From Sphingopyxis fribergensis (GTDB taxonomy: Bacteria > Pseudomonadota > Alphaproteobacteria > Sphingomonadales > Sphingomonadaceae): 64,000 bases of DNA. Positions 22,411-64,000 of this stretch are shown in pieces. Each line of letters opens with the position of its first letter. The stretch's first letter is position 1. Where the stretch lies: NCBI RefSeq assembly GCF_000803645.1, contig NZ_CP009122.1, positions 1,216,501-1,280,500 on the forward strand, given 5' to 3'. The notes beneath the pieces are model-generated. The model had not been told where the DNA came from and made no database searches. It worked only from the letters and a program-made list of their open reading frames with translations. The position numbers and the translations under genes were made by a program.

Positions 22411-22414
22411 GGAC

Positions 22415-23839: not shown

Positions 23840-23860
23840 ACAGACCCAAGGACAAACTCG

Positions 23861-24865: not shown

Positions 24866-24893
24866 AAGCGATAATGGGACAGGGAGAGGCACA

Positions 24894-26180
24894 ATGAAGA
24901 AAACGATTTTCGCGGGGCTCGCGCTGGTGGCGCTGATCCAGCCTGCCGCTGCGCAAGAACCGTCGGCAACCTATATCCACGCCGGGCGCCTGCTCGCCGA
25001 TCCCGCGAACGGCCGCGTCGAAACGAACAAGACGATCGTTGTCGAAGGCGGAAAGATCGCCGCGATCCGCGACGGCTTCGTCGGCGAGGGCCGGATTGTC
25101 GACCTTCGCGATCAGTTCGTTATGCCGGGTTTCATCGACAGCCATGTCCACCTGACCTTTGAATCGAGCCCGACGAGCCGCCTCGATGCGGTGACCAAGT
25201 CGACCGTCGATCAGGCGTTCGATGGCGTCGTCTTTGCCAAGCGCACCGTGCGCGCAGGGTTCACCACCGTGGTCGACCTGGGTTCCGATCCACAGGCGAT
25301 CAATGCGCTGCGCGATGCCACCGCGACGGGCAAGGTCATCGGGCCGCGGATTATCGCCGCGGGCGGCGTCGCGGCGCACGGCGGGCATGGCGACGTCCAC
25401 GGCTATCGGCAGGAAATCATCGACCTGTTCCGCTCTCCCACGCTCTGTTCGGGCGCCGACGATTGCGCGCGCGCGGTGCGGCTGGCGGTGCAGCAGGGCG
25501 CCGACGTCATCAAGACCGCCTCGACCGGCGGCGTGATGTCGAACACCGCGGCGGGCCTCGGCCAGCAGATGAGCGACGCCGAACTCGTCGCGATCGTCGA
25601 CACCGCGCACCGCCTCGGCCGCAAGGTCGCGGCGCACGCGCACGGGACCGACGGCGTCAATGCCGCGCTCCGCGCCGGCGTCGATTCGGTCGAGCACGGG
25701 ACGTATCTGGATGCGGAATCGATCAGGCTGTTTAAGGCGAAGGGCAGCTATCTGGTTCCGACCTTGCTCGCCGGCGACACCGTTGCTCGGCAGGCCGAAG
25801 AGGCCGAATGGATGCCAGCAGCAGTCCGCGCCAAGGCGCGCACCGTCGGCCCGCTGATGGTCGATGCCTTGCGCCGCGCGCATCAGAGTGGCGTCCGCAT
25901 CGCATTCGGGACCGACAGCGCGGTGTCGAAGCATGGCGAGAACGCCCGCGAATTCGCGCTGATGGTGAAGGCGGGGCTGACCCCGCTGGAGACGATCAAG
26001 TCCGCGACCGTGTGGGCGGCAGCGCATGCCGGGCTCGAAACCGAAATCGGCACCCTCGCGGCGGGCAAGTCGGCCGACATCGTCGCGGTAAAGGGTGATC
26101 CGCTGGCCGAGGTGCGCAGCCTTGAAACCATGGGATTCGTCATGGCGCGCGGCGTGGTCGCGCGGGAAGCAGGCGAATGA
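24894..26180 (+). CDS. Exported amidohydrolase, Xaa-Pro/imidazolonepropionase-like dipeptidase family
   Basis: 428 residues from the ATG at 24894 (AGGGAGAG upstream), signal peptide ending PAAAQ. All expected metal motifs are intact: HxH in GFIDSHVHLTFE, the bridging carboxyl-Lys in ADVIKTASTGG, His in VAAHAHGTDG and SVEHGTYLD, and Asp in AFGTDSAV; the end is GTLAAGKSADIVAVKGDPL. Close relatives hydrolyse L-Xaa-L-Pro or other small dipeptides. It is co-directional with dgcA (28-base gap) and overlaps the next gene by four bases. Confidence 0.9.
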   Translation: MKKTIFAGLALVALIQPAAAQEPSATYIHAGRLLADPANGRVETNKTIVVEGGKIAAIRDGFVGEGRIVDLRDQFVMPGFIDSHVHLTFESSPTSRLDAVTKSTVDQAFDGVVFAKRTVRAGFTTVVDLGSDPQAINALRDATATGKVIGPRIIAAGGVAAHGGHGDVHGYRQEIIDLFRSPTLCSGADDCARAVRLAVQQGADVIKTASTGGVMSNTAAGLGQQMSDAELVAIVDTAHRLGRKVAAHAHGTDGVNAALRAGVDSVEHGTYLDAESIRLFKAKGSYLVPTLLAGDTVARQAEEAEWMPAAVRAKARTVGPLMVDALRRAHQSGVRIAFGTDSAVSKHGENAREFALMVKAGLTPLETIKSATVWAAAHAGLETEIGTLAAGKSADIVAVKGDPLAEVRSLETMGFVMARGVVAREAGE

Positions 26181-28168
26181 CGATGCGCTCGCTCAAGCTG
26201 TTCGCGCTGCTGCCGCTCGCCATGATGCTTGGCACCGCGGCGACGAAGCCCGCAACGCAGCTGGCGCCTGCCATCGCGCCCAAGCCCGCGGCCGAAGCAC
26301 AAAAAGCCGCGCCTCCGGTCACAACCCCGCTTGCCCCGCCGGCAACACTGACCAAGCAGGATGTCGACAGCTGGCTCGACGGCTTTATGCCCTTTGCCCT
26401 CAAGCGCGGCGATCTCGCCGGCGCCGTGATCGTCGTCGTCAAGGACGGGCAGGTGCTCACCCAGCGCGGCTTCGGCTATGCCGATGCCGCCAGGCGCACG
26501 CCGGTCGATCCCGCGCGCACCTTGTTCCGTCCCGGATCGGTATCGAAGCTGTTCACCTGGACCGCGGTGATGCAGCAGGTCGAGGCCGGCAGGATCGACC
26601 TCGACGCCGACGTCAACACCTACCTCGATTTCAAGATCCCGCTGAAGGACGGCAAACCCGTCACGATGCGCCAGTTGATGACGCACACTGCGGGTTTCGA
26701 GGAGCATGGCAAGCTCACCATGTTCGAGGACAAGAAATTCCAGATCCCGCTCGGCGATCTTGTGAAAGGCGGGATTCCCAGCCGCATCTATGCGCCGGGC
26801 ACGACGCCCTCCTATTCGAATTACGGCACCGCACTCGCGGGCTATATCGTCGAGCGCGTTACGAAAATGTCGTTCGACGACTATGTCGAACAACGCATCT
26901 TCCAGCCCCTCGGCATGGCGAACTCGACCTTCCGCCAGCCGTTGCCCAAGAGCTTCGCGCCGTGGATGGCGACGGGGTATCGCCAGCTTTCGGCCGGCCC
27001 GTCGAAGTTCGAAATCGTCGGTCCGTCGCCCGCGGGCGGTCTTTCCTCGACCGGCGCCGACATGGGCAAATTCATGATCGCGCATCTGAACCAGGGCGCG
27101 GGGTTGATGAAGCCCGAAACCGCGCGGATGATGCACGACACGCCGCTCACCATCCTGCCGCCGCTCAACCGCATGGAGCTCGGCTTTTTCGAAACCAACA
27201 TCAACGGCCGTCAGGTGATCGCGCATCTCGGCGACACGCAGCTGTTCCACACCGCGCTCCACCTTTTCACGAACGAAAATATCGGCCTCTATATGTCGTT
27301 CAACGCGACCGGTGAGCAGGCCTCGGTCGGCCCGGTACGCCGCGCCTTGTTCGAGGATTTCGCCGATCGCTATCTTCCGGGCAACGAAATGCCCGCCACG
27401 CGCGTCGATGCGAAAACCTCGGCCGAACATGCGCGGATGCTCGCGGGAAACTGGCTCAACAGCCGCCGAGCCGAAACCAATTTCTACGCGATCGCCTCGC
27501 TGCTCGGGCAGGTGAAGATCAGCGTCGGTCCCAAGGGCGAACTCATCGTCCCGGCCGCGCGCGACCTTAACGGAAAACCCGCCAAATGGGTCGAGACCGC
27601 GCCCTTCGTCTGGCACAATGCCGACGGCCACGGTCGGCTTGCCGCTGAGGTCGTGGGCGGCAAGGTCATGCGTTGGAGCATCGACGGCATCTCGCCCTTC
27701 ATGGTGTTCGATCGCGCGCCCGCGTCGAAGTCCGCGGGGTGGATCAAGCCCGCGCTCTATGTCAGCTTCGCTATCCTGCTGATCACCTTGCTGCAGTGGC
27801 CCGTGTCGGCACTGGTTCGCCGCCACTACAAGGCGCCGCTGACGCTCCAGCGCCGGTCGCTGCTCGTTTATCGCGGCGTCCGCATCGCGGCAGGTCTGGT
27901 GCTCGCGCTGGTTGCTGCCTGGCTGGTAAGCCTGTCGACGCTGAAGGCGCTGCCCTCCTATGATCCGTGGCTGTGGTTCCTCCAGATTGCCGGGCTGATC
28001 ATCCTTGTCGGCGGCACGGTGCTCGCGGCATGGAATCTGCGTATCGTCGTGCGGGAAAAACGCGGCTGGTTCCGGACGCTCTGGGCGTTGCTCCTGCTGT
28101 TTGCCGTGCTCGCGCCTTTCTACGTGGCGTGGACCTTTGGCCTCATCGCGATGACGGTGAATTACTGA
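26177..28168 (+). CDS. Serine hydrolase with C-terminal membrane domain, paralogue of 15312-17285
   Basis: 663 residues. The start overlaps the amidohydrolase stop (ATGA). A signal peptide is followed by a Pro/Ala-rich stretch, then a class C beta-lactamase domain with Ser121-Val-Ser-Lys124 and Tyr213-Ser-Asn215, then four hydrophobic helices from about residue 525 on. It is closely similar along its whole length to the gene at 15312 (shared blocks include DSWLDGFMPFALKRGD, SYSNYGTALAGYIVERV and VGPVRRALFEDFADRY versions), so a duplication flanks the dgc genes. Probably a D-aminopeptidase or DD-carboxypeptidase-like enzyme; the substrate is inferred. Confidence 0.88.
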   Translation: MTMRSLKLFALLPLAMMLGTAATKPATQLAPAIAPKPAAEAQKAAPPVTTPLAPPATLTKQDVDSWLDGFMPFALKRGDLAGAVIVVVKDGQVLTQRGFGYADAARRTPVDPARTLFRPGSVSKLFTWTAVMQQVEAGRIDLDADVNTYLDFKIPLKDGKPVTMRQLMTHTAGFEEHGKLTMFEDKKFQIPLGDLVKGGIPSRIYAPGTTPSYSNYGTALAGYIVERVTKMSFDDYVEQRIFQPLGMANSTFRQPLPKSFAPWMATGYRQLSAGPSKFEIVGPSPAGGLSSTGADMGKFMIAHLNQGAGLMKPETARMMHDTPLTILPPLNRMELGFFETNINGRQVIAHLGDTQLFHTALHLFTNENIGLYMSFNATGEQASVGPVRRALFEDFADRYLPGNEMPATRVDAKTSAEHARMLAGNWLNSRRAETNFYAIASLLGQVKISVGPKGELIVPAARDLNGKPAKWVETAPFVWHNADGHGRLAAEVVGGKVMRWSIDGISPFMVFDRAPASKSAGWIKPALYVSFAILLITLLQWPVSALVRRHYKAPLTLQRRSLLVYRGVRIAAGLVLALVAAWLVSLSTLKALPSYDPWLWFLQIAGLIILVGGTVLAAWNLRIVVREKRGWFRTLWALLLLFAVLAPFYVAWTFGLIAMTVNY

Positions 28169-51622: not shown

Positions 51623-51708
51623 ATATTGGCGCGCGTTCGGCGTTCGAGGCAAGCGATGATCGAGTTTGGAGATTTGGCGTGGAGGGCCAGGATTTGCGCG
51701 GGATAACC

Positions 51709-53121
51709 ATGGGGCGCCTGCGCACGCTTTACGACAAAATCTGGGACGCGCATGCGGTCGCGGAGGATGATGGCGAGACTTTGCTTTATATCGACCTGCA
51801 TTTGCTCCACGAGGTGACCTCGCCGCAGGCGTTTGCCGGGATGATCGCTGCGGGGCGGCCGGTGCGGCGCCCCGAGCGGGCGCTGGCGTTATCCGATCAT
51901 AATGTGCCGACCGTCGGTCAGGCACAGGGGCCCGCCGGCGTCGCCGACGCCGAGGCGCGCGCGCAACTCGAGGCGCTGGTCAGCAATACGCGGCGCTTCG
52001 GGATCGAAAATTTCCCGATGGGCGATCCGCGTGGTGGCATCGTCCATGTGGTCGGCCCCGAGCAGGGACGATCGCAGCCGGGGATGACGATCGTCTGCGG
52101 TGACAGCCACACGTCGACGCACGGCGCTTTTGGGGCGCTCGCGTTCGGGATCGGCACGTCGGAGGTCGAGCATACGCTTGCGACGCAGACGATCCGCCAG
52201 CGCCGGTCGCTCAACATGCGCGTTACCGTCGACGGGCTGCTAGCACCGCACGTCCATGCAAAGGATCTCGCGCTACACCTGCTCGGCGTGGTCGGTGTCG
52301 ACGGGGCGGCAGGGCATGTCATCGAATATGCCGGCGAAGCCGTCCGCGCGCTGTCGATGGAGGCGCGGATGACATTGTGCAACCTCAGCATCGAGATGGG
52401 CGCGCGCGCAGGACTGGTCGCGCCTGATACGACGACATTTGCCTATCTGGAGGGGCGGCCCGCGGTGCCGACGGGACCTGATTGGGACACGGCGACCGCG
52501 CGCTGGCAGGCGCTGGGGAGTGACGACGAAGCGGTATTCGACCGTGAGTTTTGGGTCGACGCACGCGACGTCCAGCCGATGGTAAGCTGGGGTACCAACC
52601 CTTCGCAAGTCGTCGCGATCGATGGATATATCCCCGATCCGGCGGCGCTGACGGACGTCGATGCGCGCATGGTTGCCGGACGCGCGCTGGCCTATATGGA
52701 CTTGGTGCCCGGCACGCCTGTCGCCGGGCTGCGGCTCGACCGCGTGTTCATCGGCAGCTGCACGAATAGCCGGATCGAAGACCTGCGCGTGGTTGTGGAG
52801 GTCGTGCGCGGCCGCCGCGTGGCACCGCACGTTCGGGCGATGGTCGTTCCGGGATCGGGGCTGGTGAAAAGACAGGCCGAGGAAGAGGGGATCGACCGCG
52901 TGCTGCGCGATGCGGGTTTCGACTGGCGCGAACCCGGCTGCTCGATGTGCGTCGGCATGAACGCCGACCGGCTGCAGCCCGGCGAACGCTGCGCCGCGAC
53001 GTCGAACCGCAATTTCGAAAACAGGCAGGGGCGCGGTGGACGGACCCACCTGATGAGCCCCGCGCTGGCTGCGGCGAGTGCGATTGCGGGCTGCATCGCG
53101 GCCCCCGAAATGCCGGGTTAG
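51709..53121 (+). CDS. leuC: 3-isopropylmalate dehydratase (aconitase family) large subunit, LeuC-like
   Basis: 470 residues from the ATG at 51709 (GGGATAACC before it; a GTG at 51679 is an alternative). The three 4Fe-4S ligands are Cys351 (GSCTNSR), Cys411 and Cys414 (GCSMCVG), the spacing of LeuC. Other marks: [44 protein letters not shown], and [10 protein letters not shown]. The enzyme with a small subunit isomerises 2-hydroxy to 3-hydroxy dicarboxylates. The gene is not in a leucine operon. It faces its small-subunit partner tail to tail and has a MarR-type palindrome, so it is probably a catabolic paralogue acting on another 2-alkylmalate. Confidence 0.88.
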
Positions 53122-53702
53122 AGTGCTGCTTCGAATCGTGCGATCGCGTCGGCGTGGCGCAGCGTGCGGCCGATATCGTCGAGACCTTCCATCAGGATGC
53201 GGCGATCGCCAGCATTGATGTCGAAATCGATCGCCTCGCCCGAAGCGAGGAGGATTTTTCGGGCTTCGAGGTCGACTTCGATCGGCCCATATTGCGCGAG
53301 AGCGATCTCGTCACGCAGGCGCGCGCATATTTCGTCCGGCAAGCGGATCAGTAGCAGGCTGTTCTTGCGTGCATTAGCGGAAAATATGTCGCCGAAACTC
53401 GGTGCGATGACGCAGCGGATACCGAAGTCGGTCAGCGCCCACACAGCATGCTCGCGCGACGAGCCGCAACCGAAATTGCGGTCGGCGATCAGGACTTGGG
53501 CGTTGCGGCAAACGGGACCATTGAGGATGAAATCGCTGCGTTCGCTGCCATCCTCGGCAAAGCGCAGCTCTTGAAACAGATGTTTTCCCAGCCCCGTCCG
53601 AGTGAGTGCCTTCATATATTGCGCCGGGATGATCATGTCTGTGTCGACATTGGCGAGCGGCAGCGGAACCGCGACTGCATTGATTCGAACAAATTTCTGC
53701 AC
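53118..53702 (-). CDS. leuD: 3-isopropylmalate dehydratase small subunit, LeuD-like
   Basis: 194 residues. Family features: [39 protein letters not shown], the swivelling-domain motif [45 protein letters not shown]. It completes the active site over the Fe-S cluster of the LeuC-like protein. It is transcribed against leuC, with the stops overlapping by four bases (53118-53121), unlike the usual leuCD order. The operator-like palindrome at 53716 lies 14 bases before its start. Confidence 0.9.
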
Positions 53703-53731: not shown

Positions 53732-53892
53732 AAATATGGGGATCGATCTTGTCCAACATAATCGCGGGGTTGGGATGACGCCGCGATGCAAGATGGCGAT
53801 GAAGATAGTTGCCGCGCGAATCTTCGCGTCCTAAGGTTCGCACTTGCGCAGGTCGGCGCCCGACGCCGGGGACCGCGACAGGGGAACAGGAT

Positions 53893-54399
53893 TTGGCAAA
53901 GAAATCACAGGATTACCGGCATCCCGCCGAATATTACACCGATCCTGAAAACAGCATCGGTTATCTGGCGCGCGTCGTCTTCCGATCCTTTTCGCGGCTG
54001 CTCGAGCGCCGCACGCTGACGCATGATGTGTCGGCGGGACAGTGGCGGTTCCTCCGCCAGCTGTGGCGCGAAGATGGGATCACCCAGCGCGAACTCAGCG
54101 AACGCGTCGGGATGCGCGAGCCTACGACGGTAGTCGCACTGAAGGGACTCGAAAAGGCCGGACTGATCACGCGCAAGAAAACGACCGACGACCGCCGTAA
54201 GACCTTCATCCACCTGACTCCGCACGCCAAGAAGCTCGAACTGATCCTTGCGCCGATGAATGCCGAGATTCACGAGATCGCGACCAAGGGCATGACCGAC
54301 GAGGAGGTCGAGGTGCTGCAGGGGCTGATGCGCCGCGTCATCGACAATCTCGGCGATGAGACGCGCAAGCTGGCGGTGCTGTCCGACATCAAGGCTTGA
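53893..54399 (+). CDS. MarR-family transcriptional regulator
   Basis: 168 residues if started at the TTG at 53893 (GGGGAACAGGA upstream); an ATG-like start at 53809 would add 28 residues with no family match. The winged helix spans about residues 45-125: SAGQWRFLRQLWREDGITQRELSERVGMREPTTVVALKGLEKAGLITRKKTTDDRRKTFIHLTPHAKKLE. MarR dimers usually repress catabolic genes until an aromatic acid or acyl-CoA ligand releases them. It is the prime candidate to bind the five TTAG-N4-CTAA palindromes in this region, one of which lies directly upstream of it. Confidence 0.88.
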   Translation: MAKKSQDYRHPAEYYTDPENSIGYLARVVFRSFSRLLERRTLTHDVSAGQWRFLRQLWREDGITQRELSERVGMREPTTVVALKGLEKAGLITRKKTTDDRRKTFIHLTPHAKKLELILAPMNAEIHEIATKGMTDEEVEVLQGLMRRVIDNLGDETRKLAVLSDIKA

Positions 54400-54446: not shown

Positions 54447-54465
54447 TATATTGCCCGGAGGGAAT

Positions 54466-55041
54466 ATGACCAGCATCGCCGTTATCGTGGGCAGCACGCG
54501 CGAGGGATCGTTCAACCGCGCACTGGGCGAGCTCGCCGCGGGCCGCCTCGAATCTCGAGGCGCGAACGTGACGCGGGTCGACCTCGCGGCGTTCGATCTA
54601 CCGCTCTATTCGGCGGCGCTGGAGGCGAATGCATTTCCGCCCGATGCTTTGAAGCTCAAGGCGCTGTTCGCCGCACAGGACGGGCTGCTGTTCGTCTCGC
54701 CCGAGTATAATGGCTCGCTTTCGCCCCTGCTCAAGAACGCGATCGACTGGGCATCGCGCCCGACCGGCGACGAGAGTCTTGTCGCGCTCACCGCCTATCG
54801 CGGCAAGCCGGCGGCGATCATGTCGGCATCGATCAGCCCCTTCGGCGGGCTACGCGGGCTGATGCACTTGCGCCAGATCTTGTCGACGATCCAGATGCTG
54901 GTGATCCCCGAACAGGTCGTGGTGCCGAACGCGCACGCGGCGTTTGCCGAGGATGGCAGTTTGAAGGAGGCGCTGCCGGCGTCGCTCGTCGAGATGACGG
55001 CCGGACGGTTGATCGCCGTCGCAAAGGCGCTGACGGCTTAA
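54466..55041 (+). CDS. NADPH-dependent FMN reductase family protein
   Basis: 191 residues from the ATG at 54466 (GGAGGGAAT in front). Flavodoxin-like fold: IAVIVGSTREGSFNRALGELAAGRL (phosphate loop for FMN), LFVSPEYNGSLSPLLKNAIDWASR, and KPAAIMSASISPFGGLRGLMHLRQILSTI. Relatives reduce FMN, quinones, azo dyes or chromate with NAD(P)H. In this regulon it could supply reduced flavin to a monooxygenase encoded elsewhere, or reduce a quinone intermediate. Its stop overlaps the convergent MarR gene by four bases. Confidence 0.9.
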   Translation: MTSIAVIVGSTREGSFNRALGELAAGRLESRGANVTRVDLAAFDLPLYSAALEANAFPPDALKLKALFAAQDGLLFVSPEYNGSLSPLLKNAIDWASRPTGDESLVALTAYRGKPAAIMSASISPFGGLRGLMHLRQILSTIQMLVIPEQVVVPNAHAAFAEDGSLKEALPASLVEMTAGRLIAVAKALTA

Positions 55042-55496
55042 GCGCCGCGCCGCCGTGGCGCCGGGACGTCGCGGACGATATTGTCGCCCCAGTCGGCCTC
55101 GAGCGCGGCAAGCAGTGCATCGAACTTGTCCTGCCCGAGCACCGCGGCGATTTGCGTGGTGAGCGCGTCCATCGAACGCTGTGCATCCTTGCGCATACGG
55201 GCGCCGAGATCGGTCAGCGAGACGATCATGTGGCGGCGGTCGGCGGGGTCGACCTCCAACTGCACGATGCCGAGCTTCACCATCTGGTTGATCGTGCTGT
55301 GGATCGCCTGCCGCGAGACGCCGAGGTTGCGGGCGATGTCCGACGGGCGCACGATGCCGCTGACGATATTGGTCATCACCATCGATTGCGGACGGTTGAC
55401 GTCGGGCCAGCCATGATCGTGGAGCCGCGCCTGCAGCCCTTCGTCGAGCCAGCAGAAACGCTGGAAAAGGGCGATGATAAGCTGATTCGTGCGCAT
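55038..55496 (-). CDS. Second MarR-family transcriptional regulator
   Basis: 152 residues. The winged helix is seen in PQSMVMTNIVSGIVRPSDIARNLGVSRQAIHSTINQMVKLGIVQLEVDPADRRHMIVSLTDLGARMRKDA. It is clearly different from the first MarR gene. It diverges from the acyl-CoA ligase operon (about 150 bases between starts, with the palindrome at 55601 in between) and is convergent with the FMN reductase gene. It may control the ligase operon or itself. Confidence 0.9.
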   Translation of the reverse strand: MRTNQLIIALFQRFCWLDEGLQARLHDHGWPDVNRPQSMVMTNIVSGIVRPSDIARNLGVSRQAIHSTINQMVKLGIVQLEVDPADRRHMIVSLTDLGARMRKDAQRSMDALTTQIAAVLGQDKFDALLAALEADWGDNIVRDVPAPRRRGA

Positions 55497-55643: not shown

Positions 55644-57278
55644 ATGGACGGGTTGATGCAGAATGTGCCGCTGACGGTCGACCGGATCATCGATCATGCC
55701 GCCAACTGGCACGGCGCGCGCGAGATCGTGTCGCGCGATGCCGAGGGGCGCGTCGCGCGGTCGACCTATGCCGATGTCCACGCCGACGCAAAGCGCGTGT
55801 CGAACGCGCTCGCCGCGGAAGGAATCAAGCCCGGCGACCGCGTCGCGACGATGGCGTGGAACGGCGCGCGGCACCTCGCGGCCTGGTATGGAGCCGCGGG
55901 GATGGGGGCGGTGCTCCACACACTCAACCCGCGGCTGTTCCTCGAACAGATTGCCTATATCGCGAACCATGCCGGCGACCGGCTGTTAATTGCCGACCCG
56001 GCGATCGCCGACCTCGTCGAGGAACTGTTGCCGCAAGTGCCGTCGATCGAAAAGGTGATCTTTTTCTGCGATCGCGCTTCATTGCCGCAGACGAGCTTTG
56101 AGGCGGTCGCCTTTGACGACTGGATCGCGGGACAGTCGGCGGAATATCACTGGGGCGCCTTCGAAGAAAATGCCGCCTGCGGGCTTTGCTACACCAGCGG
56201 CACCACGGGCAATCCCAAGGGGGTGCTCTATTCGCATCGCTCCAATTACATCCACGCGCTGATGACGCTGCAGCGGGACGCGCTTGCACTTTCGGCGCGC
56301 GACACGGTGCTGCTTGTCGTGCCGATGTATCACGCCAACGCGTGGGGCGTCGTCTATTCGGCGCCCGCGGTCGGCGCGAAGCTGGTGCTGCCGGGGCAGC
56401 GGATGGACGGCGAATCCATCTATAATCTGATCGAGCAGGAGGGCGTCACCTATTCCGCCGCCGTGCCAACCGTGTGGCAAATGTTGCTGCAATATATGCA
56501 GGAAAACAGCAAACGCTTCACGACATTGGAGCGCGTGACGATCGGCGGATCGGCGTGCCCCGAATCGATCATTCGCACCTTCCGCGATGATTATAGCGTC
56601 GACGTCATCCAGGGCTGGGGCATGACCGAAACCTCGCCGCTCGGCACCGTGTCGGTGCCCAATGCGTCGGTTGCTGCGAAGTCCGATGCCGAGCAGATGG
56701 CCTATAAGCTGAAGCAAGGCCGGCTGCTCTGCGGGCTCGAAATGAAGCTGGTCGACGATTCCGGCAATCGCCTGCCGCATGACGGCAAGACGCCGGGACG
56801 GCTGATGGTGAAGGGGCCGACGATCGCGGGTGCTTATTATGGCGGCGAGGGCGGCGAGGTGCTCGACAGTGAGGGGTTTTTCGACACCGGCGACGTCAGT
56901 ACGATCGATGCCGAAGGCTATATGCAGATCACCGACCGCGCCAAGGACGTGGTAAAGTCGGGCGGCGAGTGGATCAGCTCGATCGAGATCGAGAATATCG
57001 CGATGGGGCACGATGCGGTCGCCAATGCCGCCGTCGTCGGTGTCGCGCACCCGAAATGGGACGAACGGCCGATCCTGCTGTGCCAGCTCAATGCAGGGGC
57101 GAGCGCCTGCGCCGACGATCTCAAATCCTATCTTGAGGGCAAAATCGCAAAATGGTGGATGCCCGACGATGTGCTCTTCGTCGAAGAAATCCCGCTCGGC
57201 CCAACGGGAAAGATCGACAAGAAAGCCATTCGCGCGGGGCTAGAGGGGTATGAATTGCCCTTCGACGCCACACGCTGA
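55644..57278 (+). CDS. Acyl-CoA synthetase (AMP-forming, FadD/medium-long-chain type)
   Basis: 544 residues from the ATG at 55644, with GAGAGAGGG upstream. ANL motifs are complete: [12 protein letters not shown] (P-loop), [59 protein letters not shown], and the catalytic Lys in [13 protein letters not shown]. It activates a carboxylic acid to its CoA thioester through an acyl-AMP. It opens the operon 55644-62324. A second ligase follows at 63455, so two different acids, or two stages, may be activated. Confidence 0.92.
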
Positions 57279-57301: not shown

Positions 57302-58432
57302 ATGATGGACCCGAACGGGATCGAGGGACTGGGCGCGCAATTTATCGGGCGTGGGTCGCCGACGGCGCCGCGCATTCAGGCGGGCGGGCACCCGTGTCAG
57401 GGCATCTACTGGACGGAAAGCGGCAAGCGTCCGAAGATCGCGATCATTGCGACCCACTATAATGTCGATTTCTCCGAACATTATATCGCCCCCTATTTCG
57501 CGCGGCAGGGCTTTGGTTTCCTTGGCTGGAACACGCGCTATCGCGGGTTCGAAGATCAGTTCCTGCTCGAACATGCGGTGCTCGATATCGGCGTCGGCAT
57601 GAAATGGCTGAAAGAAGAGGCCGGGGTAGAGCAGATCGTCATCCTTGGCAATTCGGGCGGCGGGTCGCTGATGGGTGCTTATCAGGCCGAGGCGATCGCG
57701 CCGACGCTGACCGACCGACTGCCGGCGGTGGGTCAGGATGCGCTGGCACAGATGATCAAGGGTGATCTCTACATCAGCTTCAACGCGCATCAGGGGCGTC
57801 CCGAAGTGCTGACCGACTGGATGGACGCGTCGGTGATCGACGAGAATGACCCGACGCTGGCCGATCCCGAACTCGATCCGTTCAACCTCGACAATGGGCC
57901 GCCCTATTCGGACGCCTTCATCACAAAATATCGCGCCGCGCAGCGCGCCCGCAACCAGCGCATCACCGACTGGGCAAAGGCCGAGCTCAAGCGTCTGAAC
58001 GATGCGGGCATCCCCGACCGCATCTTTCCGATGTTTCGTTGCTGGGGCGATATCCGCTGCGTCGATCCGGCGATCGACCCGTCGGACCGCAAGCCCAACT
58101 GGTGCTATCGCGGCGACCCCGCGACCGCGAACCGCACCCCGAGTATCGGCCGCGCCAATACGATCAAGACGTGGCTCAATATGTGGAGCCTCGAAACCTC
58201 GCCGTGCCAGGGCCAACCGCATCTCGCGAAGCACGATACCCCTGCACTAGTCGTGCAGGGGCTGGCCGATACGGGCGTCTTCCCAAGCGATGCGCGCAAG
58301 ATTTTCGACTTTCTCGGCTCGACCGACAAAAAGATCGAACTGATCCCCGGCGCGCATTATTTCGAGGATTCGATTGAAGAGCGCCAGAATGCCGCCGATC
58401 TTGTTGGCGCTTGGATACGGGAGAAGCTCTAG
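57302..58432 (+). CDS. Alpha/beta hydrolase of unassigned substrate
   Basis: 376 residues; AGGAGAG precedes the double ATG at 57302/57305. Fold features: KIAIIATHYNVDFSEHYIAPYFARQGFGFLGWNTRYRG and the nucleophile elbow GNSGGG with Ser118; DTPALVVQGLADTGVF carries the acid and PGAHYFED the His. A long insertion (about 130-290, NEDPTLADPELDPFNLDNGPPYSD and Cys/Trp-rich MFRCWGDIRCVDP) caps the active site. No signal peptide. It could be an esterase, lactonase or thioesterase acting on the ligase product. One base separates it from the kinase gene. Confidence 0.85.
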   Translation: MMDPNGIEGLGAQFIGRGSPTAPRIQAGGHPCQGIYWTESGKRPKIAIIATHYNVDFSEHYIAPYFARQGFGFLGWNTRYRGFEDQFLLEHAVLDIGVGMKWLKEEAGVEQIVILGNSGGGSLMGAYQAEAIAPTLTDRLPAVGQDALAQMIKGDLYISFNAHQGRPEVLTDWMDASVIDENDPTLADPELDPFNLDNGPPYSDAFITKYRAAQRARNQRITDWAKAELKRLNDAGIPDRIFPMFRCWGDIRCVDPAIDPSDRKPNWCYRGDPATANRTPSIGRANTIKTWLNMWSLETSPCQGQPHLAKHDTPALVVQGLADTGVFPSDARKIFDFLGSTDKKIELIPGAHYFEDSIEERQNAADLVGAWIREKL

Positions 58433-58433
58433 C

Positions 58434-59414
58434 GTGACGGCCGACGCCGACATAGTCGCAGAATTGCGGGCCGCCCGGCTGGTGGGCGAGGGCGATGTCG
58501 TCCTTGAACCGCTAACCGGCGGCGTGTCATGCGACGTCTGGAAGGTCGAGACGCCGTTGGGCCCGATCGTCGTCAAGCGTCCGCTGCCGCGACTGCGTGT
58601 CGCCGCTGAATGGCTGGCTCCGGTCGAGCGCGGAGTCAGCGAGGTCCGCTGGCTCCGCCGCGCACGCGGCGTCGACCCCCGCCTCGCGCCCGAGGTGTTG
58701 GCCGAACTGCCAACGGGTCATGCTTTCGCGATGCGCTTCCTACCCGGCTGCCCGGTCTGGAAGGACGAGCTGATGGCGGGCCGCGTCGACATCGACTTTG
58801 CTACACAGGTGGGGCAGGGCATCGCTGCGGTTCATGCCGCGACCGCGCATAGCGAAACCGACCGCGCTGCCTTCCCTAACGACGAGATGTTCCGCGCGCT
58901 GCGCGTCGATCCTTTTCTGCTTTATGTTGCGCGGCATGACGCCGTCTTGGCGTCGGCCCTGATCGCGCTCGCCGACGATCTGGTGTCGCGCAAGATCGCG
59001 CTCGTCCACGGCGACGTCAGCCCCAAGAATATCCTTGTCGGCCCCGACGGGCCCGTGTTCCTTGACGCAGAGTGCGCCGCTTACGGCGATCCAGCGTTCG
59101 ATCTCTCTTTCTGCACGACGCATTTGTTGATCAAGGCGGTGTGGCTGGACGATGCGCGATTGACGCAAGCCGCGACGGCGCTCGTCGATGCGTATCGGGC
59201 GGGGATCGACTGGGAAGACGCCGGCGGACTGCTGCTCCGCGCCGGCAAGCTGACCGCGGCGCTGCTGCTCGCCCGGGTCGAGGGCAAGTCGCCCGCGCCC
59301 TATCTGACCGATCCCGAACATAAGCGCTTTGTGTGCGACCAGGCGCGCGAACTGATCCTTGCGTCGCAGCCACTCGACGCGCTGGTGACCAACTGGAAAA
59401 GGACCCTTACATGA
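58434..59414 (+). CDS. APH/choline-kinase-fold small-molecule phosphotransferase
   Basis: 326 residues from the GTG at 58434 (GGGAGAAG upstream). The kinase core shows PLTGGVSCDVWKVETPLGPIVVKRPLPRL (ATP lobe with Lys), the catalytic loop HGDVSPKNILVG and the metal motif DAECAAYGDPAFDLSF. Families with this fold phosphorylate a hydroxyl of aminoglycosides, choline, homoserine, methylthioribose or fructosamines. Here it abuts an enolase homologue and a D-2-hydroxyacid dehydrogenase, so phosphorylation of a hydroxy acid made by the dehydrogenase is a plausible role (inference). The stop overlaps the enolase-like start. Confidence 0.85.
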   Translation: MTADADIVAELRAARLVGEGDVVLEPLTGGVSCDVWKVETPLGPIVVKRPLPRLRVAAEWLAPVERGVSEVRWLRRARGVDPRLAPEVLAELPTGHAFAMRFLPGCPVWKDELMAGRVDIDFATQVGQGIAAVHAATAHSETDRAAFPNDEMFRALRVDPFLLYVARHDAVLASALIALADDLVSRKIALVHGDVSPKNILVGPDGPVFLDAECAAYGDPAFDLSFCTTHLLIKAVWLDDARLTQAATALVDAYRAGIDWEDAGGLLLRAGKLTAALLLARVEGKSPAPYLTDPEHKRFVCDQARELILASQPLDALVTNWKRTLT

Positions 59415-60709
59415 CTTCGCGTATCGCCTCCGTCACCGGCCGCCAGATATGGGATTCGCGCGGCCGGCCCACCGTCGAGGCCGAGGTCGTACTCGAATCG
59501 GGCGCCGTCGGCCGCGCCATCGCGCCTGCAGGCGCCTCGCGCGGGGCGCATGAGGCGATCGACCTGCGCGACGGCGGGTGGGCGTTCGGCGGCTTTGGCG
59601 TCAATCGTGCGGTCGCGGGGATCGGCGCCGAGATCGCGGGGGCGGTCGCGGGCATGGATGCACGCGAACAGGCGACAGTCGACGCCGCGCTCTGCGCGCT
59701 CGACGGGACGCTGAACAAGGGGCGGCTGGGCGCCAATGCCGTGGTTGCGGTGTCGATGGCGGTTCTGCATGTGGCGGCGTCCGATGCGCGTGAGCCGCTC
59801 TGGCGCTATCTCGCCAACGGTCAAAAAGTCCACATTCCGCTCCCCGAAATCCAGATTTTCGGTGGCGGCGCGCATGCCGGGCGGCGCACCGATGTACAGG
59901 ATTTCATGATCATGTGCCCGAAGGCGGGAAGCTTCCGCCGCGCGCTCGAGATCACCGACGATGTCTATCGCGCTGCGGGCAGGCTGATGGAAGCGAAGGG
60001 GCCACTGTCGGGGGTCGCCGACGAAGGCGGCTGGTGGCCGAATTTCGCGTCGAACGAGGATGCGCTGGATACGCTGACGAAGGCGATTGAGGCGAGCGGG
60101 CACCGCGCGGGCGAGGATGTCTTCATCTCGCTGGATATCGCCGCGAACGAGCTGGGCGATGCCGATGGCTATCATCTCGCGCTCGACGACCGGCGGCTGT
60201 CGGGCGAGGAAATGGCGGCGCGCATTATCGAATGGACCAGGGCTTATCCGATCCTGTCGGTCGAGGATCCGGCAGGGCAGGACGACTGGACGACGATGGC
60301 GGCGGTGACTGCCGCGATCGGCGAGCACGTCCAGATCATCGGCGACGATGTCCTCGTCACCAACGCCGCGAGGGTCGAACGAGCGGGCGATGCCGGGGTG
60401 TGCAATGCCGCGCTGATCAAGGTCAATCAAGTCGGCACCGTCACCGAAGCGAAGGCCTCACTCGACGCCGCGGTCGCACGCGGCTGGGGCGCCATCGTCT
60501 CGGCGCGCTCGGGCGAGAGCGAGGATGTCACTATCGCGCACCTCGCGACGGGCTGGAACGCTGGGCAGTTGAAGGTGGGCAGCTTCACGCGGTCCGAACG
60601 CATGGCGAAGTGGAATGAGATGCTGCGGATCGAAGAAGCGATGGGCGGCGACGCCGTGTTCGCGGGCTTCTCGGCCTTTGCGGGATCGATAGGGGCCGTG
60701 CACGCATGA
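59411..60709 (+). CDS. Enolase (phosphopyruvate hydratase) paralogue
   Basis: 432 residues, same length as enolases, ATGA overlap on both sides. Conserved catalytic and Mg residues: DEGGWWP (Glu), SLDIAANE, SVEDP, IIGDD, ALIKVNQVGT (Lys) and AGQLKVGS..RSERMAKWNEMLRIEE. Departures from true enolases: the QEF motif is QDF (Asp164), HRSGE is ARSGE (Ala365 for the substrate-binding His), and SGAST is AGASR (Arg44). These change the substrate pocket while keeping the metal site. It probably removes water from a 2-phospho-3-hydroxy acid other than 2-phosphoglycerate. Enolase homologues with altered substrates are known (carboxy-PEP synthases). Confidence 0.85.
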   Translation: MTSRIASVTGRQIWDSRGRPTVEAEVVLESGAVGRAIAPAGASRGAHEAIDLRDGGWAFGGFGVNRAVAGIGAEIAGAVAGMDAREQATVDAALCALDGTLNKGRLGANAVVAVSMAVLHVAASDAREPLWRYLANGQKVHIPLPEIQIFGGGAHAGRRTDVQDFMIMCPKAGSFRRALEITDDVYRAAGRLMEAKGPLSGVADEGGWWPNFASNEDALDTLTKAIEASGHRAGEDVFISLDIAANELGDADGYHLALDDRRLSGEEMAARIIEWTRAYPILSVEDPAGQDDWTTMAAVTAAIGEHVQIIGDDVLVTNAARVERAGDAGVCNAALIKVNQVGTVTEAKASLDAAVARGWGAIVSARSGESEDVTIAHLATGWNAGQLKVGSFTRSERMAKWNEMLRIEEAMGGDAVFAGFSAFAGSIGAVHA

Positions 60710-61626
60710 TCGCGCTCCACGCCCGCCCGAGCCCCGGTTTCCGTGAGGCGGTCGATGCGGTGTTCGGCCCCGGCGTTGTCGTACATGTCGACGAGGCTGC
60801 CCCCCTCGATGACGTGACGGCAGAGATCACCGCGCTGCTTCATGTCCTCACTCCGGTCACGCCTGAATTCATCGCCTCGGCGCCGAAATTGAAGCTGATC
60901 CAGAAACTCGGCGTCGGTGTGAACACCATCGCGCTCGATGCCGCTCGCGACCACGGCGTTGCCGTCTGCAACATGCCGGGCACGAACAGCCAGGCGGTCG
61001 CCGAAATGGCGCTGGCGCTGATGATGGCGGCGCTGCGCCGTACCTGCTTCTTCGACGCGCGCACGCGGGCGGGCGAAGGATGGACCGCCGATCCGTCCGA
61101 ACTCGACAGCGTCGGGGAGATCGGGGGGCGGACCGTGGGACTCGTAGGGTTCGGCAATTCGGCGCAACTGCTTGCGCCGGTGCTCGCGGCGCTCGGGGCG
61201 AAGGTCGTCTATACCGCGCGCAATCGCCGCGATGGCCCCTATGAATATCGGCCATTCAATGATTTGATCGCCGAAGCCGATATCGTTTCGCTGCATATCC
61301 CGCTCACCGATGAGACCCGCGCTAGCGTCGATCCGTTCGCGATGAAGAAGGGCGCCGTGCTGGTGAACACCGCGAGGGGCGAACTCGTCGATCAGGCGCA
61401 ACTCGTTGCGGCATTGACCTCGGGCCATCTGCGCGGTGCCGGGCTCGATGTCTTCGCAGAAGAACCTCTGCCGCGCGGCAATCCGTTGCTCGGCCTGCCG
61501 GGCGTCGTCCTCGCGCCGCATATCGCGTGGCTGACGCCCGAAACGCTGGTGCGCAGCCTGACGGTTGCGCATGAAAATTGCCGCCGTCTGGTGGCGGGGG
61601 AAACCCTTCTTCATCAGGTGGTCTAA
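60706..61626 (+). CDS. D-isomer-specific 2-hydroxyacid dehydrogenase
   Basis: 306 residues. NAD-binding fold: GRTVGLVGFGNSAQLLAPVLAALG. Catalytic residues are the Arg in VNTARGELVDQ, Glu in DVFAEEPLP and His in LAPHIAWLT. Typical substrates are 2-keto acids such as hydroxypyruvate, glyoxylate or phenylpyruvate, reduced to D-2-hydroxy acids, or the reverse. ATGA overlap with the enolase-like gene and one-base overlap with the next gene place it in the kinase-enolase module. Confidence 0.9.
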   Translation: MIALHARPSPGFREAVDAVFGPGVVVHVDEAAPLDDVTAEITALLHVLTPVTPEFIASAPKLKLIQKLGVGVNTIALDAARDHGVAVCNMPGTNSQAVAEMALALMMAALRRTCFFDARTRAGEGWTADPSELDSVGEIGGRTVGLVGFGNSAQLLAPVLAALGAKVVYTARNRRDGPYEYRPFNDLIAEADIVSLHIPLTDETRASVDPFAMKKGAVLVNTARGELVDQAQLVAALTSGHLRGAGLDVFAEEPLPRGNPLLGLPGVVLAPHIAWLTPETLVRSLTVAHENCRRLVAGETLLHQVV

Positions 61627-62324
61627 TGTCGATTCCTATCGTTTTGATTACAGGTCAGCTTTTGACCAAAGCCGTATGGCAGCCGCTGCTCGACGCATGG
61701 ACCGATCGGGAGGTGATCGTCGCCGACAATCAAAGTGACGACACGATCGAGGGTTTTGCGCAGCGCCTGCTCGACAATGCGCCGCCGAAGTTCATCCTGA
61801 TCGCGCACGCGATGGGGGGCTTCGTCGCCTTCGAGGTCATGCGCCGCGCGCCCGAACGCGTTGCCAAGCTGGCGCTGATTTCGACGCTCGCCTCGGCCGA
61901 CGGCCCGGCGCAGACCGCGCGGCGGCAGGGCTATATCGACCTCGTTGAAAGCGGCCGGTTCGATCAGGTGGTCGAGGAACGCATCCCAATTCTCTTTCCC
62001 GAGGAAAAGCGCCGCGACGAGCGCCTTCTCGGCATTGCGCGGCAGATGGCGGCTGATACCGGCGCCGATACCTTCCTTACGCAGCAGCGCGCGATCATGG
62101 CACGCATCGACAGCCGCCCGCGGCTCGGCGAGATAAGGGTGCCGACCTTGCTGATATGGGGCGAGAAGGACGGCATCACCAGCCGCGCGCACCATGACGA
62201 GATTTTGGACGCGATTGCGGGGGCGCGGCTTGAAGTGATTCCCGGCGCCGGGCATCTGCCGACGGTTGAGGCGCCGGAATTGGTCTTGGCGCTGCTGACC
62301 GAGTTTATCGACGAATTAGGTTAG
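61626..62324 (+). CDS. Alpha/beta-hydrolase-fold protein with Ala at the nucleophile position
   Basis: 232 residues. The fold is normal: PIVLITGQLLTKAVWQPLLDAW, LISTLASADGPAQTARR, VPTLLIWGEKDGITSRAHHDEI (acid) and IPGAGHLPTVEAPE (His). The nucleophile elbow, normally G-x-S-x-G, reads AHAMGG with Ala62 in place of Ser. Hydrolysis by the usual serine route is thus impossible; non-nucleophilic mechanisms are known in this fold (for example cofactor-free dioxygenases and some lyases). It is the last gene of the operon; its stop overlaps that of the convergent MetE-like gene by nine bases. Confidence 0.85.
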   Translation: MSIPIVLITGQLLTKAVWQPLLDAWTDREVIVADNQSDDTIEGFAQRLLDNAPPKFILIAHAMGGFVAFEVMRRAPERVAKLALISTLASADGPAQTARRQGYIDLVESGRFDQVVEERIPILFPEEKRRDERLLGIARQMAADTGADTFLTQQRAIMARIDSRPRLGEIRVPTLLIWGEKDGITSRAHHDEILDAIAGARLEVIPGAGHLPTVEAPELVLALLTEFIDELG

Positions 62325-63374
62325 CTCCGCCCGCACCAGCGCCGTCCCGTCGACCATGGCCTTCAGCTTCGCCTGCGAATGTTCGCGGCTGTGATATTTC
62401 ATCCCGCAATCGGGCGCGATCCACAGCCGCTCGGCGTCGACATAGCGCAGCGCCTCGCGAATGCGCCCAGCGACAACCTCTGGCGTTTCGATCTCGGGGA
62501 TCGACAGGTCGAGCACGCCATACATGATCGTCTTGGTCGGCAATTCGGCGAGGATCGCGGGGTCTAGCCCCGGCTGCGCCGCCTCGATCGAGATCACGTC
62601 GATCGACGACGCTTCGAGTTCGGCGAGGAAATCATAGGCCTTGGGTTTCGGCCCCGTTGCCCCTGCGCCGTGATGCACCATAGCATAACCGAAACAGATA
62701 TGCAGCGCGGTCGTCCCGCCTACCCCGTCGAGCGCGCGGTTTATCGCCTCGATCGCATAGCTGTTCGCCTCTGCCGCGCGTGCCTGCAAATAGGGTTCGT
62801 CGAGCTGGACGACGTCGACGCCCGCCGCGAACAGATCCTTCACCTCGGCATTGACCGCATCGGCATAGTCCATCGCGAGCGACCGTGCGTCGGGATAATA
62901 GCCATTCTCGGCCTGTTGCGTCATCGTGAACGGGCCGGGCAGGGTGAGCTTCACCGGCTTGGTCGAATGGCGGCGGAGGAAGGCGGCATCCTGCGCCTCG
63001 ATCGGGGCGACGCGGCGGATCGGGCCGGAAACGAGCGGCACCGGATTGGCGTTGCCGGTGCGGTCTATCGCGGTGCCGTGCTTCTCGCGGTCGATTCCGG
63101 ATAGCGCGGTCGCGAGGCGGTTCGAATAGCTTTCCCGGCGCATTTCGCCGTCGCCGACGATGTCGATGCCAAGCTCTTCCTGATCGCGAATCGCCATCAG
63201 CGTCGCCGCTTCCTGTGCGTCGGCGAGCCATGGTTCTGGGATGCGCCACAGCGTTTCGGCGCGGACGCGCGGGGGCAGGCTGGCCTTCAGCCGCTTGCGG
63301 TCGATCAGCCAGTCAGGCTGGGGGTAGCTTCCGACGATGGTTGTCGGCAGGATGGGGTGGTCGAACAAGGCCAT
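62316..63374 (-). CDS. MetE C-terminal domain family (cobalamin-independent methionine-synthase-like) protein
   Basis: 352 residues, equal to the C-terminal catalytic half of MetE, without the N-terminal half. TTIVGSYPQPDWL starts the barrel; KLTLPGPFTMTQQ and VVQLDEPYLQAR follow. The four zinc ligands are all there: His and Cys in LHICFGY, Glu in ISIEAAQ and Cys in APDCGMK. The zinc activates a thiol for alkyl transfer. Relatives include methionine synthases acting on small methyl donors and epoxyalkane:coenzyme M transferase. In a catabolic regulon, alkyl or methyl transfer from a substrate is more likely than Met synthesis (inference). It is divergent from the second ligase. Confidence 0.87.
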   Translation of the reverse strand: MALFDHPILPTTIVGSYPQPDWLIDRKRLKASLPPRVRAETLWRIPEPWLADAQEAATLMAIRDQEELGIDIVGDGEMRRESYSNRLATALSGIDREKHGTAIDRTGNANPVPLVSGPIRRVAPIEAQDAAFLRRHSTKPVKLTLPGPFTMTQQAENGYYPDARSLAMDYADAVNAEVKDLFAAGVDVVQLDEPYLQARAAEANSYAIEAINRALDGVGGTTALHICFGYAMVHHGAGATGPKPKAYDFLAELEASSIDVISIEAAQPGLDPAILAELPTKTIMYGVLDLSIPEIETPEVVAGRIREALRYVDAERLWIAPDCGMKYHSREHSQAKLKAMVDGTALVRAELT

Positions 63375-63420: not shown

Positions 63421-63454
63421 TAATTCAAGTCGAAACGACGGTTGGGAGAGCAAA

Positions 63455-64000
63455 ATGATCGATCTGGAGGCCATCCGGACGCTGGCGGATATTCCGGCGG
63501 CGCAGGCGTGCGTGCGGGGGCAGGCGACCGCAGTGAAGTTCGGGGAACGCGAGACGAGCTTTGCCGAGCTCGATGCGCGTTCCAACCGTGTCGCGCATGC
63601 CCTGATCGCCGCGGGGCTCGCGGCTGGCGACCGCGTTTCGGCGCTGACCAAGAACCACGACAGCTGGTATCCGCTTTTCTTCGGCACGGCGCGCGCGCGC
63701 GCCTGTTTCGCGCCCATCAACTGCCGCCTTGCGCCTGCCGAGATCGGCTTCATCCTGGGCGATGCGGGGCCGAAACTGCTGTTCGTCGGCGAGGATTTCT
63801 TCGACTGTGCGCTGGCTGCGGTCGCCGATCTGGCTGTGCCGCCCCGGTTGATCGCACTGTACGGCGCGCATCCCGCGTTCGAACCCTTCGAGACCTGGCT
63901 GGGCGAGGCACCCGACGCTCCGCTCGCCGACCCGCCGCAACTCACCGACGATGTGCTCCAGCTCTACACCAGCGGCACGACCGGCCTGCCGAAGGGCGTC
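63455..64000 (+). CDS. AMP-forming acyl-CoA ligase, N-terminal part (3' end outside window)
   Basis: 182 codons from the ATG at 63455 (GGGAGAG upstream); the frame is open at the window edge. Features: TSFAELDARSNRVAHALIAAGLAAGDRVSALTKNH, FFGTARARACFAPINCRLAPAEIGFILGDAGPKLLFVGED, and the ATP/AMP motif YTSGTTGLPKGV just before the end. It is only moderately like the ligase at 55644, so it is a second, different enzyme of the regulon. Substrate class (fatty or aromatic acid) cannot be set from the N-terminal part. Confidence 0.9.
   Translation, partial: MIDLEAIRTLADIPAAQACVRGQATAVKFGERETSFAELDARSNRVAHALIAAGLAAGDRVSALTKNHDSWYPLFFGTARARACFAPINCRLAPAEIGFILGDAGPKLLFVGEDFFDCALAAVADLAVPPRLIALYGAHPAFEPFETWLGEAPDAPLADPPQLTDDVLQLYTSGTTGLPKGV

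Follow-up and report, generated by a model that had tools for sequence, protein, structure and literature searches.

The window analysed here, a stretch of 64,000 nucleotides from contig NZ_CP009122.1 of Sphingopyxis fribergensis, carries between positions 57302 and 62324 of its plus strand five genes that encode, in this order, an α/β-fold protein (ABH1), a small-molecule kinase (KIN), an enolase paralogue (ENO2), a D-2-hydroxyacid dehydrogenase (HADH) and a second α/β hydrolase (ABH2). KIN, ENO2 and HADH are supported as a conserved, coupled set, and the KIN–ENO2 order is found again in unrelated genomes. By its branching and residue pattern, ENO2 is a distinct enolase clade. KIN and ENO2 may together act as a portable pair of enzymes at the end of catabolic pathways, converting a glycerate-type acid through its 2-phospho acid to phosphoenolpyruvate (PEP), a reading to which we give a probability of about 0.5.

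The kinase, enolase and dehydrogenase genes

With start codons of our own choice, KIN and ENO2 overlap by 4 bases (ATGA), as do ENO2 and HADH, whereas ABH1 is separated from KIN by 1 bp (TAG-C-GTG) and HADH shares 1 base with ABH2 (TAATG). An initial annotation of this DNA had described both 4-base overlaps, which inspection of the DNA bears out, as well as two flanking α/β-fold genes and a CoA ligase, which are present as ABH1, ABH2 and an upstream acyl-CoA ligase gene that is probably the first of the operon. It had also called the three enzymes fused; they are coupled, but their genes are separate (Table 1). Public annotation names KIN a phosphotransferase or aminoglycoside phosphotransferase family protein and ENO2 a plain phosphopyruvate hydratase.

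PF01636 is the only Pfam match of KIN at E ≤ 0.001, and the HGD.SPKN and DAE residues are invariant across 38 aligned sequences. The HGD...N and D.E motifs, which we take to have their usual roles in KIN, the profile match and the fold together place KIN in the APH/choline-kinase superfamily. The AlphaFold model of KIN (pLDDT 94.7) has as its nearest solved folds the 5-methylthioribose kinases, which belong to the APH superfamily and act on a small sugar-like substrate. The 5-methylthioribose kinase family is also the best NCBIfam match of KIN, but the score is 46.8 bits against a cut-off of 275, and sequence identity is 14–19%. KIN does not belong to the glycerate 2-kinase families GarK (PF02595) and GCK (PF13660).

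HADH has the two-domain profile and the Arg/Glu/His triad of the D-2-hydroxyacid dehydrogenases. The window protein and 17 linked-type relatives, which are 50–79% identical to it, all have R224, E253 and H272. The triad presumably has its usual role, and we take this family to give D acids. HADH lies below the equivalog level for glyoxylate/hydroxypyruvate reductase, its best score being 175 bits against 455 (PRK13243).

Table 1. Features of the operon and its surroundings in the window (locus counts refer to the pooled set of 119 loci defined in the next section)
Feature	Position	Strand	Basis or remark
KIN, APH-fold small-molecule kinase, 326 aa, GTG start, module core	58434..59414	+	PF01636, 62 bits
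ENO2, enolase paralogue, 432 aa, module core	59411..60709	+	TIGR01060, PF00113, PF03952
ENO2 D164 codon, yeast Glu168 position (E to D in linked relatives)	59900..59902	+	alignments
ENO2 A365 codon, yeast His373 position (H to A in linked relatives)	60503..60505	+	alignments
HADH, D-2-hydroxyacid dehydrogenase, 306 aa, accessory module member	60706..61626	+	PF02826/PF00389
ABH1, α/β-hydrolase fold, 376 aa, island gene	57302..58432	+	marginal: PF00326, 22.9 bits, cut-off 22.6
ABH2, α/β hydrolase, island gene	61626..62324	+	PF12697/PF00561
Acyl-CoA ligase, upstream	55647..57278	+	NF004674 subfamily, 854 bits, cut-off 766
MarR-family regulator, divergent from operon	55038..55496	-	PF12802
NADPH-dependent FMN reductase family	54451..55041	+	PF03358; 29/119 loci
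MarR-like regulator 1	53809..54399	+	by inspection; 36/119 loci
LeuD-like small subunit	53118..53702	-	convergent with LeuC-like gene, ends overlap by 4 bases
LeuC-like large subunit, second genome copy	51679..53121	+	57% identity to other LeuC
MetE-catalytic-domain protein, island gene	62316..63374	-	PRK09121-like, under its cut-off
Second acyl-CoA ligase, extends past window edge	63449..64000	+	by inspection

Conservation and coupling of KIN and ENO2

When 298 genomes of the window's family were searched with the kinase, 16 matched, including the window's own and two weak matches. The order CoA ligase–ABH1–KIN–ENO2–HADH–ABH2 is present in seven of the 13 stronger family loci (L022–L026, L028 and L030), and L032 has the same set in rearranged order. 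L033 retains KIN–ENO2, L034 has the order HADH–ENO2–KIN, and in L027, L029 and L031 KIN is accompanied by a MarR gene, the contig of L031 stopping at KIN. A kinase alignment run against species genomes contributed the best 80 of at least 571 confirmed stretches, those nearest to the query; by record title, these relatives are Alpha-, Beta- and Gammaproteobacteria, Acidobacteria, Chloroflexi and Actinomycetes, many of them metagenome-assembled genomes. The pooled set comprises 119 loci besides the window. Several loci represent one genome twice (for example, L088/L187 and L054/L027), and so dereplicated counts are also given, 116 loci remaining when kinases at least 99% identical are merged. 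L035 and L036, with weak kinase matches and no ENO2 match, and L247–L254 stand outside these counts, and a neighbour is counted when tblastn matches it anywhere in the fetched stretch, adjacent or not.

ENO2 is matched in 103 of the 119 loci and lies on the same strand within 200 bp of KIN in 97 of these. The initial annotation had staked its proposal on gene order being conserved elsewhere, and this order is. In the dereplicated set, ENO2 is matched in 102 loci, HADH in 61 and FAH-type hydrolases in 10. The 4-base overlap is found at 52 of 77 KIN/ENO2 junctions and 33 of 46 ENO2/HADH junctions measured, with start codons set by rule. Two enolases are present in 38 of 40 kinase-positive genomes and one in the other two (G085 and G242), and each of 10 kinase-negative genomes has a single enolase. 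At E ≤ 1e-60, the kinase alignment detected the kinase in 9 of 398 genomes sampled from the phylum, one of the nine being the window's own, and in 10 of 198, 11 of 199 and 25 of 149 genomes of groups f14, f11 and f7, respectively, indicating that the module is patchy.

Active-site residues of ENO2

ENO2 resembles canonical enolase (EC 4.2.1.11) in its profile scores (TIGR01060, 460.3 bits, cut-off 300; PF00113, 282 bits), its fold, its metal ligands, its Lys345/Glu211 pair and its residues S39, H159, R374, S375 and K396, in what we take to be yeast enolase numbering. It is unlike canonical enolase in forming a separate branch, in carrying the E168D, G209A, H373A and T397V changes and in being a second copy near KIN in 38 genomes. 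The canonical enolase of the same genome is encoded at a separate site (G000:C1:1503871-1504716) and is 43% identical to ENO2. In a quick-search LG+G4 tree that set 42 KIN-linked enolases (the window's and those of 41 of the 101 long linked loci) against 31 canonical ones, one branch with SH-aLRT 100 parts the two sets; L034, L132 and L181 sit on long end branches, their placement being unsure.

The four changes are present in 42 of 42 linked enolases and in none of the 31 canonical ones, so that the active-site pair Glu168/His373 of enolase is Asp and Ala throughout the linked set and Glu and His throughout the canonical set. N152Q, N155G and A215W are found in 41 and S36A in 40 of the 42. 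In the larger set of 101 loci and the window, Asp occupies position 168 in every row and Ala position 373 wherever it is covered. Trp-215 is missing in L034 and in the plasmid relatives L248, L253 and L254, which share D168 and A373. S39, H159, E211, K345 and K396 are retained in all linked and canonical rows. Across 76 loci and the window, D246, E295, D320, R374 and S375 are conserved, gaps in one truncated row aside, and the metal and catalytic positions are kept apart from two rows, one truncated and the other containing unread bases. Since these positions are kept, ENO2 looks active.

It could be argued that ENO2 is simply a second 2-phosphoglycerate enolase, an isozyme, that KIN is an ordinary glycerate kinase, and that the fixed residues reflect drift or kinetic tuning. 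The retained catalytic and metal residues, the enolase fold and a TIGR01060 score well over its cut-off are consistent with this. However, four positions that separate the 42 linked enolases completely from the 31 canonical ones, three more in 41 of the 42, spread over several phyla by record title, and the restriction of ENO2, among the 50 genomes tested, to those that carry the kinase make the isozyme explanation improbable.

The role of the His373 position is presumed here to be its known one in enolase. The AlphaFold model of ENO2 (pLDDT 89.7) has TM scores of 0.92–0.95 to its 50 best solved matches, all of which are enolases. Its only stretch below pLDDT 50, residues 154–158, lies within the second active-site loop, and so the pocket cannot be read from the model. 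In a study of Mycobacterium enolase, Lys335 (yeast 345) takes the C2 proton and Glu204 (yeast 211) removes the C3 hydroxyl, and Glu163, the counterpart of Glu168, contacts the carboxylate and, through a water, works with Glu204 at the terminal carbon (PMC10619443). The changes in ENO2 thus touch the C3-leaving side, and at position 168 possibly the carboxylate, with the metal ligands, the base and the phosphate residues kept.

These changes raise the question of whether the acid is modified at C3. ENO2 might act on a C3-substituted or different 2-hydroxy acid, or on one with another leaving group such as sulfite, giving PEP or a substituted enol phosphate. E168D and H373A trim or eliminate active-site side chains, and the loop-1 residue T40 is variable among the 42 linked enolases (R in 18, T in 17, M in 4 and K in 3), as it might be in a pocket suiting varied substrates; the loop-1 residue showed no clean correlation with gene context when compared by eye. 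On the other hand, A215W, together with an aromatic residue at 214, may occupy the vacated space. The gene contexts described below also bear on this alternative, which we regard as unlikely on balance. Sulfite-handling genes are rare among the neighbours (TauE-like in 2 and persulfide-dioxygenase-like in 3 of the 119 loci), and for this reason a sulfonate route, with sulfolactate as the acid and sulfite as the leaving group, was rejected as the primary interpretation.

An enolase paralogue with a new role has a precedent. An enolase homologue makes carboxyphosphonoenolpyruvate in phosphinothricin synthesis, and ENO2 is likened to it by description only. No phosphonate genes were recognised by eye in the operon, no search having been aimed at them.

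Gene neighbourhoods and a possible route to phosphoenolpyruvate

The readable neighbourhoods, in a reading that covered the loci other than L155–L173 and L209–L215, are of three kinds: sugar-acid clusters, ring-cleavage clusters and an island of Sphingomonadaceae and Caulobacteraceae. The sugar-acid kind has LacI, KIN, ENO2, an FAH hydrolase, an SDR dehydrogenase and a sugar ABC importer. Plasmids of Paracoccus seriniphilus and Roseibium aggregatum carry LacI–KIN–ENO–FAH–SDR with a sugar ABC importer and TTT or TRAP importers, and L131 and L191 are of the same type without TTT or TRAP importers. UxuA lies near the module in L088, L187, L099 and L108, and a UxuA-like gene in L184, the assignment being profile-tested in L088 and L184 only; L088/L187 also have SDR and FAH genes, and L184 has SMP-30, SDR and FAH genes. 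IlvD/EDD is present in L131 and, by inspection, in L206 (G731), whose extended context has a full sugar-oxidation set by inspection, one that does not specify stereochemistry. For the FAH proteins of L133 and L184, the closest family is 2,4-didehydro-3-deoxy-L-rhamnonate hydrolase, but at 334 and 370 bits they stay below its cut-off of 500.

The ring-cleavage kind has an HpaD-like dioxygenase, a cupin, an alcohol dehydrogenase, HADH, KIN and ENO2. Sphingobium sp. TomTYG74 is of this kind with FAH, and Rhizobium sp. CIAT894 is of this kind without FAH in the stretch. Rhodococcus pseudokoreensis has the order FAH, HADH, eno, KIN, FAH, with the dioxygenase absent from the stretch. A PEP carboxylase gene lies directly upstream of HADH–KIN on the CIAT894 plasmid, and in L061 and L070 inspection showed pyruvate-kinase-like genes some 2 kb away from the module.

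The island kind is that of the window. VOC genes are matched in 27, CMD-type genes in 22, GST genes in 8, ABH1 in 34 and ABH2 in 33 of the 119 loci, and relatives carry the divergent MarR-family regulator at the equivalent place. The initial annotation had asked about co-occurrence with MetE-like and LeuCD-like genes, and both were found in other genomes: MetE-like in 27 of the 119 loci, including three Phenylobacterium loci (L062, L069 and L107), and LeuC-like in 20, all Sphingomonadaceae by title or kinship. The best PDB match of the MetE-domain protein of the window is 3rpd. The LeuCD-like, MetE-like and CoA ligase genes are island-type genes outside the wider KIN–ENO2 core.

The reactions proposed here for KIN, ENO2 and HADH are predictions from families and neighbours, set beside the observed conservation, coupling, residue changes and contexts. 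KIN would phosphorylate the 2-hydroxyl of a glycerate-type acid, and ENO2, as a specialised enolase, would then remove the 3-hydroxyl to give PEP. In about half of the loci, HADH would first reduce a hydroxypyruvate-type 2-keto acid to the hydroxy acid. The initial annotation had ordered the steps in the same way, from keto acid through hydroxy acid and 2-phospho acid to enol phosphate, and this order fits the enzyme families. In the sugar-acid clusters, FAH-type hydrolysis of a 2,4-diketo-3-deoxy hexonate could yield pyruvate and glycerate with no reductase needed. Such direct release of glycerate would explain why most FAH sugar-acid loci lack HADH, which is matched in three of 11 FAH-matching loci (L073, L075 and L116). 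Cleavage of a more hydroxylated chain could instead give hydroxypyruvate, from which HADH would supply glycerate. Both routes would meet at glycerate, KIN and ENO2, with PEP as the product, which the pyruvate-kinase-like genes and the CIAT894 PEP carboxylase fit. In the Sphingopyxis operon, the source compound is probably activated as a CoA thioester.

Two known routes are close to this proposal. The serine pathway ends with hydroxypyruvate reductase, glycerate 2-kinase and enolase, an identical chemical order if the substrate of the module is unsubstituted; the module differs in having an APH-family kinase instead of GarK or GCK and a dedicated modified enolase. The L-rhamnonate/L-fuconate route uses an SDR dehydrogenase and an FAH hydrolase to give pyruvate and L-lactate, and the FAH neighbours of two sugar-acid loci resemble its hydrolase. 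Unlike that route, the module loci add KIN and ENO2, which lactate would not need, and their FAH proteins score under the family cut-off.

Several observations weigh against a general end piece that makes PEP from glycerate. Most loci have no readable pathway, FAH contexts are a minority (10/116 dereplicated loci), and UxuA is present in only five and pyruvate kinase in two of the 119 loci. In addition, 16 of the 119 KIN loci have no ENO2 match. The sequence of six of these stops within 2 kb downstream of KIN, and L083 is scored as lacking ENO2 solely since its contig stops inside the gene; the other 10, with Sphingosinicella counted twice (L027/L054 and L029/L055), have at least 7 kb downstream, and L058 has HADH directly after KIN. 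KIN can therefore occur without ENO2. In the Sphingosinicella loci, an open KIN frame stands beside MarR, the stretch showing neither ENO2 nor any other island gene.

The simplest acid is D-glycerate, which is narrowly placed first: the D-specific dehydrogenase family, UxuA and the occurrence of KIN without ENO2 favour it. In the window's own family, GCK and GarK are absent from all 12 kinase-positive genomes (GCK is present in one of 14 kinase-negative ones), and so KIN could fill a gap there. Against D-glycerate, GCK, a D-glycerate 2-kinase, is already present in kinase-positive genomes of f14 (8/9), f11 (11/11) and f43 (1/1), so that the module would be redundant in f14 and f11. Each of the 50 genomes tested also has a canonical enolase, and a dedicated enolase with invariant changes is kept though an ordinary one would serve D-glycerate. 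GCK is also found in kinase-negative genomes of f14 (9/9) and f11 (9/9), and is absent from kinase-positive genomes of f1 (0/12), f7 (0/6) and f15 (0/1). GarK exceeds its cut-off solely in G945 (kinase-positive) and G687 (kinase-negative) among 80 genomes. As a test between D- and L-glycerate, the presence of a glycerate kinase is suggestive in f14 and f11 and uninformative in f1, f7 and f15.

If the acid were L-glycerate, KIN would make 2-phospho-L-glycerate, and an ENO2 of opposite stereospecificity at C2, for example with Glu211 as base and Lys345 as acid, would convert it to achiral PEP. The source of L-glycerate would be L-hexonates, degraded along the route by which L-rhamnonate and L-fuconate yield L-lactate. 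L-Glycerate would explain a dedicated enolase and kinase despite the canonical enolase and, in f11 and f14, the D-glycerate kinase; the two scanned sugar-acid FAH members nearest to the L-rhamnonate-route hydrolase, though below its cut-off, and the retention of both Lys345 and Glu211 while E168 and H373 are altered agree with it. However, HADH in 61 of the 116 dereplicated loci is of a D-specific family, KIN also occurs without ENO2, and no L-sugar enzyme was identified with confidence. Moreover, UxuA, of the D-mannonate dehydratase family, would lead to D-glycerate, and the sole UxuA of G1046 adjoins KIN, favouring D-mannonate there. L-Glycerate is a doubtful choice of acid.

The initial annotation had favoured a substrate larger than glycerate. 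This is now one option of several, the FAH/SDR sugar-acid loci pointing to glycerate (D or L). The island and ring-cleavage loci, which have no sugar genes, would suit a C3-modified acid, but the hexonate contexts leave an unsubstituted C3 acid, and the neighbouring genes for pyruvate kinase and PEP carboxylase point to plain PEP. A broader proposition, held with somewhat less than even confidence, is that the substrate of ENO2 has changed (for example, to 2-phospho-L-glycerate or a C3-modified 2-phosphoglycerate) and that KIN and ENO2 constitute an undescribed, widely transferred PEP route for an otherwise unusable acid.

Other arrangements were seen around KIN and its relatives. Beside KIN–ENO2, L066 has a gene of the PEP-mutase/isocitrate-lyase family, named by profile match, and a TRAP importer; L249 (Azospirillum brasilense Sp 7) has a TRAP importer there too, with a similar PEP-mutase-type gene and a PhyH-like dioxygenase gene, both by inspection. 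A PdxH-like gene (pyridoxamine phosphate oxidase, by inspection) lies near KIN in five of the 119 loci (L074, L079, L082, L083 and L112), four of them Betaproteobacteria by title. On Enterobacter chuandaensis plasmid NZ_CP097174.1 (L250, 7253-9978), a distant KIN relative adjoins a strongly diverged enolase-like open reading frame (34%) in which the RSGE motif was not found, in surroundings that resemble a small-molecule biosynthesis cluster (aminotransferase, oxidoreductase, iron-containing redox enzyme, nucleotidyltransferase and MFS genes). Relatives of the window also have an extra LeuC-like/LeuD-like pair on opposite strands. The island continues past the window (L134, 3350-17734) with four GST-like genes, a TonB receptor, MFS, CMD-like, SMP-30 lactonase, VOC, CaiB-like CoA-transferase and HMG-CoA-lyase-like genes, SMP-30 being named by Pfam, CMD by Pfam in the relative L032 only and the rest by inspection. 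Elsewhere in the window, positions 20782-28168 hold a run of amidohydrolase-, beta-lactamase-fold- and dipeptide-epimerase-like genes, and 23861-24865 is perhaps another enolase-superfamily member, both by inspection.

Overall, the interpretation of the initial annotation is partly supported. It had known of no described pathway with this set, in agreement with which no description of the set, nor of an APH-family kinase acting together with a second enolase, was found in searches of open-licence PMC papers. The enzyme families are known; the ENO2 clade, its residue signature and the module appear to be undescribed as far as those searches reach. Few known enzymes are as conserved and specific as enolase. 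A clade of it that shows identical active-site changes in all members examined, and that lies nearly always beside one kinase family but in varied catabolic settings, implies either a new substrate or a dedicated PEP-forming module. The role of KIN and ENO2, once settled, would complete several sugar-acid and ring-cleavage pathways together.

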